Below are positions 20,980 to 26,678 of a stretch of DNA of 64,000 bases, piece by piece. How positions within the stretch are numbered: position 1 is the first letter of the stretch; every line of letters begins with the position of its first letter. Position numbers and translations under genes: made by a program. The notes beneath the pieces are model-generated. The model did no database searches. It was not told where the DNA came from and was given only the letters and a program-made list of their open reading frames with translations. This DNA comes from Acidobacteriota bacterium (GTDB lineage Bacteria > Acidobacteriota > Terriglobia > Terriglobales > Acidobacteriaceae): contig JAJZBZ010000003.1 of the NCBI GenBank assembly GCA_021846275.1, positions 62,001 to 126,000 on the forward strand, in the 5' to 3' direction.

Positions 20980-21016
20980 CGAACGGCGCGGGATCACTCC
21001 CGCGCCGTTCGTTTTT
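20980..21016. terminator. Bidirectional terminator between the lipoprotein gene and nrdB
   Basis: A 12-bp stem GAACGGCGCGGG/CCCGCGCCGTTC with a 6-nt loop is flanked by AAAAGC on the left and GTTTTTT on the right. It serves both converging genes; nrdB stops at 21037. Confidence 0.88.
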
Positions 21017-21036: not shown

Positions 21037-22086
21037 TCAGAACTCCTCGCTGAACGCGACCTCACCCTCGACCGCCGACTGATACGCCGACACCCTCCGT
21101 TCAAAGAAGTTCGTGAGTTCCTGCACATCCTGCAACTCCATAAACGCGAACGGATTCTTCGTCCGGAACACCGGCTCAATCCCCATCCGCTTCAGCCTTG
21201 CATCCGCCACATAGCCCAGATACTCGCGCATCTCCTTCAGCGACAGCCCGGCCACGCCGCCCGCCAGCAGATCCTCGGCAAACTGCGCCTCGGCATCCAC
21301 CGCCTCGCGCAGCATCTCGGCAATCTGCCGCTCCATATCCGCGTCCCACAGGTCCGGCTCCTGCGCCCGCACCACATTCACCACCTCAAAGGCAAACTCC
21401 AGGTGGCAGCTCTCGTCGCGAAAGACCCAGTTCGTTCCCGCCGCCAGCCCATGCAGCAGCCCACGCGAGCGGAAGTAGTACACATACGCAAACGCCGCAA
21501 AGAAAAACAGCCCCTCAATGCACGACGCAAAGCAGATCAGGTTCAGCAGAAACTCCCGCCTGTCCTCGCGCGACCGCAACTCGTCCAGCTTCTGGATCGA
21601 GTCCATCCACTTCATGCAAAAATCGGCCTTCTTGGCAATCGACGGAATATTTTCAACCGCCGCAAACGCCGCCGCGCGCTCGTCGGGGTCCGGCACATAG
21701 TTGTCCAGCAGCGTCAGATAAAACTGCACATGCACAGCCTCTTCAAACAACTGCCGCGACAGATACAGCCGCGCCTCCGGCGAGTTGATGTGCTTGTACA
21801 GATTCAGCACCAGATTGTTCGACACAATGCTGTCGCCCGTGGCGAAAAACGCCACCAGCCGCTGAATCACATGCACCTCGGCCGGGGTAAACTTCTGCTT
21901 CAGGTCCACCAGATCGGTCTGGAAATCAATCTCCTCCACCGTCCACGTATTCTTGATCCCGTCGCGAAACATATCGAAAAACACCGGAAACCGCATCGGC
22001 CGCAGCGTCAGACACAATCCCGGATCCAGAATATGCTGCGGCGGCGCCACCGAACTTCGCTTCTGCACTACCTCTGTCGTTGCCAT
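21037..22086 (-). CDS. nrdB: Ribonucleoside-diphosphate reductase class Ia, beta subunit NrdB
   Basis: Radical-generating R2 subunit. The 349-residue product keeps the full di-iron set: D85, E116, H119, E191, E225, H228, and the radical tyrosine Y123 placed seven residues after E116 as in E. coli (E115...Y122). It is thus a tyrosyl-radical (oxygen-dependent) enzyme. The C-terminal VAFSEEF tail is the type that docks into NrdA. It lies 143 nt downstream of nrdA on the same strand and presumably shares its transcript and the upstream riboswitch control. The start ATG at 22086 is preceded by GGAGAGCGAAG. Confidence 0.95.
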   Translation of the reverse strand: MATTEVVQKRSSVAPPQHILDPGLCLTLRPMRFPVFFDMFRDGIKNTWTVEEIDFQTDLVDLKQKFTPAEVHVIQRLVAFFATGDSIVSNNLVLNLYKHINSPEARLYLSRQLFEEAVHVQFYLTLLDNYVPDPDERAAAFAAVENIPSIAKKADFCMKWMDSIQKLDELRSREDRREFLLNLICFASCIEGLFFFAAFAYVYYFRSRGLLHGLAAGTNWVFRDESCHLEFAFEVVNVVRAQEPDLWDADMERQIAEMLREAVDAEAQFAEDLLAGGVAGLSLKEMREYLGYVADARLKRMGIEPVFRTKNPFAFMELQDVQELTNFFERRVSAYQSAVEGEVAFSEEF

Positions 22087-22229: not shown

Positions 22230-24671
22230 CTACTGGCACGCTTCGCACGAGCCAGGATTCTCCAGCGAACACGCCACGGCGGCCTGTGCGCTCACTTCCG
22301 GTCGCGCAGTTGCAGTCTGCGCTGTCGTCGTCTGCACCGTCGTTTTGGCAATCTTCGTCGCCGGGCGCGAGCGAAGATAATACGTCGTCTTCAGCCCTTT
22401 TTTCCACGCGTACATATACATCGAAGACAGCTTGCCGATCGTCGGCGACTCCACAAACAGATTCAGGGACTGCGCCTGATCGATAAACGCCCCGCGCGCC
22501 GCCGCCGCGTCAATCAGTCCACGCATCGGAATCTCCCACACCGTCCGATACAGCAGCTTCAGATCCTCCGGCAGCTCCTCAATTCCCTGCACCGATCCCT
22601 CGCCCAGCTTCAGCCGCGTGCGAATCGTCTCATTCCACAGCCCGCGCTGCTTCAGCTCCTCGATCAAGTAACGATTCACCTGCAGAAACTCGCCCGAAAG
22701 CGTCTCCCGCTTGAAGAGATTCGAAATCTGCGGCTCAATGCACTCATAGCAGCCCACAATCGAGGCAATCGTCGCCGTCGGAGCCACCGCAATCAGCAGC
22801 GAATTCCTCACGCCCGACCTCCTCACGCGCTCCCGCAGCGCGTCCCACCGCGCCTCGTCGCGCGGCGTCACGCCCCACAGATCAAACTGGAAATCCCCCT
22901 TCGCCAGCCGCGTTTCGCCGAACCGCTCATGCGGCCCCGCAATCTCGGCCAGCTCCACCGAAGCCATCACCGCGTGATAATAAATCTCCTCCTGGATGCG
23001 CGCGGAAAGCTCCAGCGCTTCCACCGAATCGAACGGCAGCCGAAGCTGGAAAAACACATCCTGCAATCCCATCACGCCCAGGCCCACCGGCCTCCACTGC
23101 GCATTCGACACCGCCGCCGTCTCAATCGGATAGAAGTTGATGTCTATCACACGATCCAGCATCGGAATCGCCGCCGCCACCGTCCGCCCCAGTTTGGCAA
23201 AATCAAACTCCGCGCGTCCCGCCGCGTCCACCATCACATGCCGACCCAGGTTGATCGATCCCAGATTGCACACCGCCGTCTGGTCCTTCGACGTCACCTC
23301 TGTAATCTCCGTGCACAGGTTCGACAGATGCACCACATTGCCCGCCGCGCCCGTCTGGTTGCACTTCCGGTTCGTCGCGTCCTTGAACGTCATCCATCCG
23401 TTGCCCGTCTCGGCCAGCGTACGCATCATCCGCGCATACAGCTCGCGCGCCTTCACCTGCTTCTTCCAGATGCCGCGCGCCTCAACCTCTTCATACGCGC
23501 GATTGAACTCCTCGCCAAAGAGATCCGGCAGCGTCGGCGCGTCCTTCGGATCAAACAGCGACCACAGCCCATCCGACTCCACGCGCTCCATGAACAGGTC
23601 CGGAATCCAGTTCGCCAGATTCAGGTTGTAGGTCCTCCGCGCGCCGTCGCCCGTATTGTCCTTCAGCTCCAGAAACGACTCCACATCCGCATGCCACGGC
23701 TCCAGATACACACAGCACGCGCCCTTGCGCTTGCCGCCCTGGTTCACCGCCGCCACCGACGCATCCAGCGTCCGCAGCCACGGCACAATCCCGTTCGACA
23801 GCCCGTTCGTCGCGCGGATCAACGAACCCTCCGACCGCACCCGATGAAACGCCAGGCCAATTCCGCCGGAAAACTTCGACAGCAGCGCCACATCCTTGTA
23901 CGTCTCGTAAATGCTCTCCAGCGAATCCAGCGGCGAATCGTGCAGATAGCACGACGACATCTGTGCATGCTTCGTCCCCGAGTTGAACAGCGTCGGCGAC
24001 GACGGCATATAGTCCAGCGAGGCAATCAGCCGATAAAACTCGATCGCCTCCTGCGGACCCTGCGCCAGCCCGCAGGCCACGCGCAAAAAGAAGTACTGCG
24101 GCGTCTCCATCACCCGACGCGAAATCGGATCCCGCAGCAGATACCGGTCATAGACCGTCCTCAGCCCGAAGTACTCAAATCTGTCGGAAAATCCCTCATC
24201 CACCGCATGGTTCAGCTTCCGCGCATGCTGCTGCACAAACTCCGCCGTCGCCGCGCTCACCACGCCTTCCTGATGTCCGTACGCAATCGCCTGCGAGAAC
24301 GAATGCAGATTCTGCCCACCCACCTCCTTCACAATCGTGCCCAGCAGCAGCCGCGCCGCCAGCCGCGAATACTGCGGCTCCTCGGCGATCAGCGCCGCCG
24401 CCGTATCAATCGAGATCGCGTCCAGCTCCCGCGTCGTCGCACCGTCATACAGCCCGCCAATCGTCTTCGACGCCACACGCATCGCGTCCACATGCGTCAG
24501 CCCCACGCAGCAGCGCTCCACCGCGCGAACAATCTTGTTCACGTCCACCGGCTCCAGCGCGCCGTTCCGCTTCTTCACGTGCATCACGGAAACTTCCTCG
24601 CGCGCCGGAAACCCGGGGTCCAGCTCGGAAAGGCTCGTCTGCAACTGCGCTGTTTCGGTCATCGTGGCCAT
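22230..24671 (-). CDS. nrdA: Ribonucleoside-diphosphate reductase class Ia, alpha subunit NrdA
   Basis: Catalytic R1 subunit converting NDPs to dNDPs. Start chosen at 24671 (ATG, AGGAG 9 nt upstream); a longer frame reading into the leader would overlap the cobalamin riboswitch and is rejected. The 813 residues begin with an ATP-cone (about 28-115, VMHVKKRNGALEPVD...), the allosteric activity site. Then come the active-site cysteines (QMSSCYL, HLSNLCTEI, AVCNLGSINL), the radical-transfer pair in KTTYYLR, and the C-terminal shuttle CEAC two residues from the end in a Ser/Thr/Ala-rich tail. Upstream are a B12 riboswitch and two NrdR-like boxes. Confidence 0.96.
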   Translation of the reverse strand: MATMTETAQLQTSLSELDPGFPAREEVSVMHVKKRNGALEPVDVNKIVRAVERCCVGLTHVDAMRVASKTIGGLYDGATTRELDAISIDTAAALIAEEPQYSRLAARLLLGTIVKEVGGQNLHSFSQAIAYGHQEGVVSAATAEFVQQHARKLNHAVDEGFSDRFEYFGLRTVYDRYLLRDPISRRVMETPQYFFLRVACGLAQGPQEAIEFYRLIASLDYMPSSPTLFNSGTKHAQMSSCYLHDSPLDSLESIYETYKDVALLSKFSGGIGLAFHRVRSEGSLIRATNGLSNGIVPWLRTLDASVAAVNQGGKRKGACCVYLEPWHADVESFLELKDNTGDGARRTYNLNLANWIPDLFMERVESDGLWSLFDPKDAPTLPDLFGEEFNRAYEEVEARGIWKKQVKARELYARMMRTLAETGNGWMTFKDATNRKCNQTGAAGNVVHLSNLCTEITEVTSKDQTAVCNLGSINLGRHVMVDAAGRAEFDFAKLGRTVAAAIPMLDRVIDINFYPIETAAVSNAQWRPVGLGVMGLQDVFFQLRLPFDSVEALELSARIQEEIYYHAVMASVELAEIAGPHERFGETRLAKGDFQFDLWGVTPRDEARWDALRERVRRSGVRNSLLIAVAPTATIASIVGCYECIEPQISNLFKRETLSGEFLQVNRYLIEELKQRGLWNETIRTRLKLGEGSVQGIEELPEDLKLLYRTVWEIPMRGLIDAAAARGAFIDQAQSLNLFVESPTIGKLSSMYMYAWKKGLKTTYYLRSRPATKIAKTTVQTTTAQTATARPEVSAQAAVACSLENPGSCEACQ

Positions 24672-24783
24672 CGCTCTCGTCTCCTCATTCGCCGCCCCTC
24701 GGGCAGAACGCAACAGAGGCCGCGCGGCCACCTGCTGCATCCCTCCCCTCGGAGGCGCAGTCCCCGGTCCCAATCCGGGCATC

Positions 24784-24948
24784 CATGGCAGGTCTTCGGA
24801 CTCGACGGGCCACCTACTCACCTGACTTCCCGGCACCCGCTCATCGCCAGTGTCTTTTCCAGGCTTTCGTTCCCGTTCACCGCTGCGGGGCAGCTCCGGA
24901 TTCTCACCGGATTCCCTTTTCACTCCGCCCTGAAACCGGAGCACCATG
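24784..24948 (-). ncRNA. Cobalamin (AdoCbl-type) riboswitch upstream of nrdAB
   Basis: Read on the minus strand, the leader contains the conserved core in order: AAAAGGGAATCCGGTGAGAA then TCCGG, CTGCCCCGCAGCGGTGA, GGGAACGAA, CACTGGCGATGAGCGGG, GCCGGGAAGTCAGG, and the closing GAGTCCGAAGACCTGCC (B12 box). CATGG near 24944-24948 pairs with CCATG at 24784-24788 as P1. Order and spacing are those of Rfam-type cobalamin aptamers. About 110 nt separate it from the nrdA start, enough for an expression platform. Confidence 0.95.
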
Positions 24949-24961
24949 AACATGAACATCC

Positions 24962-24977
24962 CAACACTATCTTGCGT
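24962..24977 (-). promoter_or_regulatory. NrdR-like box 2 (proximal)
   Basis: Minus-strand ACGCAAGATAGTGTTG matches the published NrdR consensus acaCwAtATaTwGtgt at about 11 of 16 positions. It lies 14 nt upstream of the riboswitch P1 and exactly 31 bp from box 1. Confidence 0.7.
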
Positions 24978-24992
24978 CCGCCAAAATAGCAA

Positions 24993-25008
24993 GCTCTATA
25001 TCTTGCGC
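24993..25008 (-). promoter_or_regulatory. NrdR-like box 1 (distal)
   Basis: Minus-strand GCGCAAGATATAGAGC matches the NrdR consensus at about 11 of 16 positions, including the core ATATa. Spacing to box 2 is 31 bp, three helical turns, as in known NrdR pairs. The nrd core promoter probably overlaps the pair. Confidence 0.72.
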
Positions 25009-25095: not shown

Positions 25096-25123
25096 TTGAC
25101 ACGAAAGATTTTTCTGCTATGCT
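25096..25123 (+). promoter_or_regulatory. Sigma-70-type promoter of the DUF4382 lipoprotein gene
   Basis: TTGACA (25096-25101) and TATGCT (25118-25123) with a 16-nt spacer, preceded by the AT-rich ATATTTTTTG. The leader would be about 110 nt to the ATG at 25239. Confidence 0.72.
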
Positions 25124-25238: not shown

Positions 25239-26678
25239 ATGAAACCCACATTCAGGTCATTGCTCATGCCGTCCGCTTTTTTCGCATGCGGCCTGTTGAT
25301 CCTTGCGCTCTGCATCTCCGCCTGCGGCAGCGGCGGCTCCACCACCCCCACCGCCTCCAGCATGGGCACGCTGAACACCTCGCTCAGCGACCCGGCCACC
25401 TGCCAGGCGCCCGACGGCCAGTTCTCCCACGTTTACGTCACCATCACGGACATTCAGGCCAACACCAGCGCCACTGCCTCCAGTTCCGACAGCGGCTGGG
25501 CCGATCTCACCCCAGGACTGTCCAACGCGCCGAAGCAGATCGACCTCCTCGGCCAGGCCAACAACCAGTGCTTCCTGGCCACGCTCGGTGACAACGTCGA
25601 GCTTCAGGCCGGCTCCTACCAGCAAATCCGGCTCATCCTCGCCGACAACAGCGTGAGCCTGAGCAACAACGCCTGCGGCAGCGCCGCCAACTGCGTCGTC
25701 CTCACCTCCGACGGCAGCGTTCACACCCTCCAGCTTTCCAGCGAGGCCCAGACCGGCATCAAGATTCCCTCCGGCCAGATCGCCTCCGGCAACTTCACCA
25801 TCAGCGCCGGCCAGACCGAAGACCTCGACATCGACTTCAACACCTGCGCCTCCATCGTCGAAGAGGGCAACGGCCAGTTCCGTCTGAAGCCCGTCCTCCA
25901 CGCCGGCGAGGTCTCGACAACCTCCAGTTCCATCAACGGCAAGGCCTATGACTCGGCCACTGGCAACCCCGTCAACGGCATGACCACCGTCTCGCTTGAA
26001 CAGAAGGACTCGACGGGCGTCGATCGCGTCATCATGTCCACCATGGCCGCCTCGGACGGTTCCTTTGTCTTCTGTCCGCTGCCCGCCGGAACCTATGACG
26101 TCGTCGTCACGGCCACGCGCGCCGACGGCACCATTTACGCGCCGTCGATCGTCACCGGCGTGGCCACCGGCAGCACCACCGGCACCGTGATGATGCACGC
26201 GCCGTCGGCAGCCGCGCCCACCAGCACGGCCACCATCACGGGCCTCATCACCTCCCAGAACAGCTCGATGGCCGGCACCATCGCCGACATTCAGCTCAGC
26301 ACGCTGGAGACGGTCAGTTCAACCATCTACACCATCCCGCTGCCACCCACCTCCACCCAGCAGGCGGCCACGCTCACGCTCGAAACCGCCGCCACGGCAG
26401 GCACAACCACCTGTCCCACCGGCACGGACTGCTCCGCCTACTCCATCCAGCAGGCCTCCGGCGGCGTCTACATCGGCGCATGGTCAGCCAGCGGCGCTAC
26501 GCTCGCCCAGAGCACTCCGCTCGCTGCCTACACCCTTGATGCCGAAGCGTTCGTCCAATCCTCCGGCGGCACTCCGGATTGTTCGCCCAGCGAACTGCAA
26601 TCCACCGCCTACACCCTCACCGGCTCCGGCCCCTACGCCGTCGCCGCAAGCAACCTGGCCTTCACCTCCTGCCAGTAA
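25239..26678 (+). CDS. DUF4382 domain lipoprotein
   Basis: The 479-residue product has a lipoprotein signal (lipobox ISAC, Cys28) and GAGGAG upstream of ATG. Residues about 45-225 match the DUF4382 pattern: LNTSLSDPATC, FSHVYVTITDIQA, IDLLGQANNQCFLATLG, LQAGSYQQIRLIL, LTSDGSVHTLQL, GIKIPSGQIASGNFTI and LDIDFNTCASI. This is followed by a carboxypeptidase-regulatory-like beta-sandwich (SINGKAYDSATGNPVNGMT..., SDGSFVFCPLPAGTYDVVV) and a further beta-rich C-terminal part. Such proteins are common and unassigned in acidobacteria; surface exposure is inferred. Confidence 0.8.
   Translation: MKPTFRSLLMPSAFFACGLLILALCISACGSGGSTTPTASSMGTLNTSLSDPATCQAPDGQFSHVYVTITDIQANTSATASSSDSGWADLTPGLSNAPKQIDLLGQANNQCFLATLGDNVELQAGSYQQIRLILADNSVSLSNNACGSAANCVVLTSDGSVHTLQLSSEAQTGIKIPSGQIASGNFTISAGQTEDLDIDFNTCASIVEEGNGQFRLKPVLHAGEVSTTSSSINGKAYDSATGNPVNGMTTVSLEQKDSTGVDRVIMSTMAASDGSFVFCPLPAGTYDVVVTATRADGTIYAPSIVTGVATGSTTGTVMMHAPSAAAPTSTATITGLITSQNSSMAGTIADIQLSTLETVSSTIYTIPLPPTSTQQAATLTLETAATAGTTTCPTGTDCSAYSIQQASGGVYIGAWSASGATLAQSTPLAAYTLDAEAFVQSSGGTPDCSPSELQSTAYTLTGSGPYAVAASNLAFTSCQ

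Follow-up and report, generated by a model that had tools for sequence, protein, structure and literature searches.

A class I ribonucleotide reductase operon of an acidobacterium with predicted NrdR and B12 riboswitch control, and the co-occurrence of its riboswitch with nrdJ in related genomes

The closest described counterpart of the locus analyzed here is found in Streptomyces, where experimental work placed the class I ribonucleotide reductase operon nrdABS under a B12 riboswitch (Borovok 2006, as cited in PMC3293853 and PMC4991794); the title of that study, as cited in PMC3293853, calls the control transcriptional. Grinberg 2006 (cited in PMC12051234) announces in its title that NrdR binds at the class Ia and class II promoters of Streptomyces. 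Comparative genomics led to the proposal that B12 elements control B12-independent isozymes in genomes that also have the B12-dependent one, as for nrdDG alongside NrdJ in delta-proteobacteria (PMC545781) and for metE (PMC2211319, PMC9600662). In three Streptomyces loci that we scanned, an NrdR box pair at 31 bp and then a B12 aptamer preceded the class I nrdAB genes. An aptamer also preceded nrdA in Micromonospora, Nocardioides, Actinokineospora, Paractinoplanes, Virgisporangium, Metallococcus, and Edaphobacter aggregans.

The window, that is, the whole 64-kb stretch of acidobacterial DNA analyzed here, holds a locus laid out like nrdABS/nrdRJ of Streptomyces coelicolor: an NrdR pair at 31 bp is followed by a B12 riboswitch and class I nrdAB, with nrdJ elsewhere under its own NrdR control. 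Very probably, this nrdAB operon is subject to two stacked negative controls, NrdR at the promoter and the B12 riboswitch in the leader. Unlike its Streptomyces counterpart, the locus belongs to another phylum, the operon has no third gene nrdS, nrdR and nrdJ are not adjacent, and the aptamer is of the RF00174 class, whereas two of the three Streptomyces loci carry AdoCbl-II; the features of the Streptomyces-type nrdABS/nrdRJ module, nrdS in third place and nrdR beside nrdJ, are both absent. The locus also resembles the isozyme cases of metE, nrdAB, and nrdDG, in which the switch lies on a B12-independent isozyme that coexists with a B12-dependent one. It differs from those cases in being an nrdAB operon of the Acidobacteriota, in the within-family contrast between genomes that have nrdJ and genomes that do not, and in the use of two aptamer classes at a single gene. 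A literature search, covering mostly open-access full texts, found no report for Acidobacteriota.

The large subunit, NrdA (813 aa; 22230..24671, minus strand, ATG at 24671), matched TIGR02506 (699 bits vs 341) along with PF02867, PF00317, and the ATP-cone family PF03477. The class I catalytic cysteines, the C-terminal CxxC, the Tyr-Tyr pair, and the ATP-cone are all present as motifs. NrdB (349 aa; 21037..22086, minus) was assigned to the class I small subunits by PF00268 and by alignment with Chlamydia R2, and the nrdAB unit ends in a strong terminator-like hairpin with a T-rich tail (20980..21011, minus) right after nrdB. As a sequence-only reading of this DNA had stated, the catalytic residues and the radical tyrosine are retained: besides the cysteines of NrdA, the metal ligands of NrdB are in place, and its Tyr123 aligns with Phe127 of the wild-type Chlamydia R2. 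The same reading called the enzyme class Ia, which is borne out by the residues, Asp85 (at the position of a Glu in Chlamydia R2) and Tyr123, and less so by sequence lineage; the best alignment of NrdB was to Chlamydia R2 (204-206 bits), and the nearest solved R2 structures are Chlamydia proteins, which we take to be class Ic. Because NrdB is nearest to Chlamydia R2 in sequence yet has Asp85 and Tyr123, class Ia serves as an operational label, a reasonable one on these residues, and NrdAB would be expected to need oxygen.

To the leader of nrdA, cmscan assigned the sole RNA family that reached its gathering threshold in the window, RF00174 (Cobalamin). The match (24963..24770, minus) is complete, covering model positions 1-189, and scored 127.6 bits against a threshold of 31.5 (E 1e-31), with 98 nt separating the aptamer from the nrdA ATG. 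The complete aptamer claimed by the sequence-only reading was thus recovered by the covariance-model scan that it had named as a check; the span it gave, 24784-25008, takes in the aptamer apart from a trivial 14 nt at the 3' end. Judged by this match, the leader is predicted to be an RNA that binds B12 and thereby changes expression. The aptamer itself does not differ from the RF00174 family, and the core of the hairpin that follows it is common to the nrdA leaders of relatives.

That hairpin, CCTCCGAGGGGAGG (24742..24755, minus), lies just 3' of the aptamer and probably corresponds to P13/L13 of the expression platform. It is nearly invariant in relatives, as is its core CTCCGAGGGGAG, and the core CUCCGAGGGGAG recurs in their nrdA leaders. 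A Shine-Dalgarno-like GAGGAG of nrdA can be read directly at 24681..24686 (minus); across the leaders, a good Shine-Dalgarno sequence follows the hairpin after about 60-70 nt, and the whole platform measures about 100 nt. RNAalifold, applied to 24 leaders, paired the CUCC of the hairpin with the nrdA Shine-Dalgarno sequence within a long alternative structure. This pairing and the hairpin's own are mutually exclusive, and either state of the platform could hide the ribosome site. The inner pairs of the hairpin are mostly retained in pair counts; because they are nearly invariant, covariation says little here. An SD-like GGGGAGG and a GUG are frequent in the platform hairpin. We rejected a conserved leader peptide, and with it upstream-ORF control, because the frames range from 6 nt to more than 2 kb and some members have no start codon.

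The terminator scan found no intrinsic-terminator-like site between the aptamer and nrdA, and this result together with the CUCC pairing favours an action on translation; the OFF direction would follow known cobalamin riboswitches. It is possible, if rather doubtful, that the B12-sensing switch controls transcription instead, through a Rho-dependent or hidden terminator. The Streptomyces precedent is transcriptional by its title, and Rho sites are invisible to a terminator scan, but the interval is free of intrinsic-terminator-like sites and relatives have a well-formed Shine-Dalgarno sequence that the consensus pairing reaches. Adenosylcobalamin binding would refold the platform and so keep NrdAB from being produced as long as the B12-dependent NrdJ is able to function.

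Terriglobus roseus and Edaphobacter aggregans rank among the closest named matches, in keeping with the assignment of this DNA to the acidobacteria. The rest of the genome (3.34 Mb, 13 contigs, 98.6% complete) supplied the class II enzyme whose presence the sequence-only reading had surmised. Its nrdJ is intact, with 535 bits to TIGR02504 against the NCBIfam cut-off of 399.95, the N-terminal domain PF08471, a TSCPD domain, and a Cys-rich C-terminus; it lies on contig C11, about 100 kb from nrdA on that contig. The nrdR gene, for which that reading had advised a search, is present in a single copy (TIGR00244, 190 bits vs 124.65) on contig C3, separate from the nrdJ contig (C11). Neither nrdD nor metE was found in the genome, and MetH is present. 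Three cobalamin riboswitches occur in addition to that of nrdA. Two of them are divergent and are surrounded by an aerobic cobalamin locus (CobG, CobF, CobM, CobI/J, and others), and the fourth of the genome lies upstream of a TonB-dependent receptor. The B12-switch regulon of this genome therefore comprises nrdAB together with B12 synthesis and, probably, B12 uptake, and no B12-independent isozyme other than nrdAB was found in it.

We surveyed related genomes for the riboswitch and nrdJ in two sets. Among 150 genomes sampled from the order, an N-terminal probe detected class I nrdA in 57, and 46 of these had nrdJ over the TIGR02504 cut-off. Rfam models placed an aptamer upstream of nrdA in 45 of the 46 (42 RF00174 and 3 RF01689, AdoCbl-II) and in 0 of the 11 genomes without nrdJ; for this set alone Fisher's test gave p 6.5e-11, a statistic that ignores kinship. 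A 398-genome sample of the family added 48 nrdA genomes with usable matches. Here nrdJ exceeded the cut-off in 36 and was judged present in 3 more (G215, G338, and G404) from partial matches near contig ends, and all 39 had the switch (37 RF00174-type and 2 AdoCbl-II), as detected with a nucleotide HMM derived from the first-set sequences and rechecked with Rfam at 20 loci. Nine genomes of this set had no detected nrdJ, and the switch was absent from six of them and present in three (G349, G370, and G408; 74, 74, and 85% complete); since these assemblies are incomplete, nrdJ may just be missing from them.

Over all 105 genomes, an intact B12 riboswitch preceded nrdA in 84 of the 85 with nrdJ (79 RF00174-type and 5 AdoCbl-II) and in 3 of the 20 without detected nrdJ, a count that falls to 0 of 16 where the assembly is more than 85% complete. 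Parsimony on the NrdA trees gave 3 changes of nrdJ state in the first set and 4 in all genomes, and 4 and 5 changes of the switch, respectively. The tree holds 3-4 independent pairs, all of them concordant, a number with which a phylogeny-aware sign test cannot be significant. The comparison across these genomes supports the view that the B12 switch accompanies NrdJ.

Only one of the 85 nrdJ-bearing genomes departs from this pattern, G128, which is closely related to the window organism. Its nrdJ, nrdA, and NrdR boxes are intact, and the aptamer core is deleted, leaving 19.6 bits (L013:2200-2308); it may be a natural switch knock-out or an assembly error. This genome, with nrdJ and the boxes kept and the core lost, is what speaks for regarding the switch of the window genome as a functionless inherited remnant, with NrdR alone controlling nrdAB. 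We consider this very improbable, as the window aptamer is full length at its high score and the close relatives G267, G275, G283, G288, G292, and G302 keep theirs. Without nrdJ the aptamer is seen to decay, so that its retention suggests its use. In G082, which has no nrdJ, the aptamer is a remnant of 15.6 bits beside intact NrdR boxes; other nrdJ-less leaders have no aptamer over threshold and keep NrdR pairs at 30-31 bp, some with scores barely above chance. No switch was found before nrdA in Terriglobus roseus.

Directly upstream of the aptamer lie NrdR box 1, GCGCAAGATATAGAGC (25008..24993, minus), and box 2, ACGCAAGATAGTGTTG (24977..24962, minus), 31 bp apart from start to start. In an NrdR operator, two 16-bp boxes stand whole helix turns apart; their 15-bp spacer here accords with the 15-16 bp given in PMC12051234. 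With a matrix trained on relatives, the window genome left out, the pair scored 24.2 bits and stood alone above 12 within the window; in twelve random 64-kb Markov sequences the top pairs reached 8.4-12.8, and the textbook consensus alone also ranked this pair first. The two boxes and their interval had been noticed by the sequence-only reading, and the matrix scan placed them far above chance. Box 1 is identical in G128 and nearly so in other relatives, and the pair is retained across relatives at a spacing of about 30-31 bp. A further pair, spaced 30 bp and scoring 21.6 bits, precedes nrdJ; none was found upstream of the organism's own nrdR (best 2.4 bits). Divergent from nrdA lies a DUF4382 gene with a lipoprotein-like start (25239-26678, plus), near which a good sigma-70-like promoter, TTGACA-16-TATGCT, was seen at 25096-25123.

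Many relatives have TTGAC as a -35 element between the two boxes and TATAGT as a -10 element within box 2, about 17 bp apart, and the aptamer starts a few bases past TATAGT. The corresponding elements of the window (TTGCTA and TAGTGT) are weaker, and the promoter scanner makes no call there. Because the boxes frame the -35/-10 elements and the aptamer follows within bases, bound NrdR would lie over the promoter, and the aptamer would form the start of the transcript. A very improbable alternative is that the boxes are mere promoter elements mimicking a pair, an idea prompted by the overlap of box 2 with the -10 element and by the TTG of the -35 element between the boxes in many relatives, but opposed by the conservation of box 1 upstream of the -35 element, the fixed spacing, the same arrangement at nrdJ, and the presence of nrdR. 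We read the pair as a predicted NrdR operator. NrdR loaded with dATP/ATP would bind both boxes and block transcription, tuning nrdAB, and nrdJ through its own pair, to the nucleotide pool; the transcript, subject to the second of the two stacked controls, would begin almost at the aptamer's 5' end.

Five nrdJ-bearing genomes of a Terriglobus-like genus, g9 (L022, L029, L030, L191, and L194), use AdoCbl-II rather than RF00174 as the aptamer ahead of nrdA, with the same NrdR pair upstream of it. We lean slightly toward the view that in this one family the B12 riboswitch acts as a plug-in module whose presence follows that of nrdJ, being lost or decaying along with it, and that it occurs in two aptamer classes, RF00174 and AdoCbl-II, behind one retained NrdR promoter; this would imply that the aptamer was replaced, or gained independently, at a single site.

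Several further arrangements were seen in the relatives' loci. In five of them a second cobalamin riboswitch is located between nrdB and a downstream metE (L042:4674-6500, L045:4789-6499, L046:3-1952, L051:4858-6801, and L057:4857-6599), so that nrdAB and metE, both B12-independent isozymes, adjoin with one B12 switch each. Five others carry a second cobalamin riboswitch on the opposite strand, pointing away from nrdA, identified with Rfam at L023:2784-2982 and with the HMM at L088:412-553, L180:672-827, L188:646-794, and L209:631-775; the ORF next to that of L023 starts like an outer-membrane receptor. In L060-L068 and others of the same family, the nrdA present is not of the 813-aa type but of a second subfamily, about 1000 aa long and 42-44% identical, which likewise has NrdR boxes and a cobalamin riboswitch upstream. 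Near nrdA in eight nrdJ-less, Terriglobus-like loci (L024, L028, L041, L092, L096, L192, L195, and L199) lies a tRNA gene with an identical score of 51.5 bits.

Streptomyces had already provided an example of this arrangement, which is ordinary in kind; its occurrence here extends that regulatory design to another phylum, the Acidobacteriota. For the idea that a B12-independent isozyme carries a B12 switch only alongside its B12-dependent counterpart, the family offers an internal contrast in which decayed switches serve as evidence. Specialists may find interest in that contrast, in the decayed switches, and in the use of two aptamer classes at a single promoter. Sister strains that differ in whether they have nrdJ, and in whether their switch is intact or deleted, offer natural material on the cost and saving of the switch.
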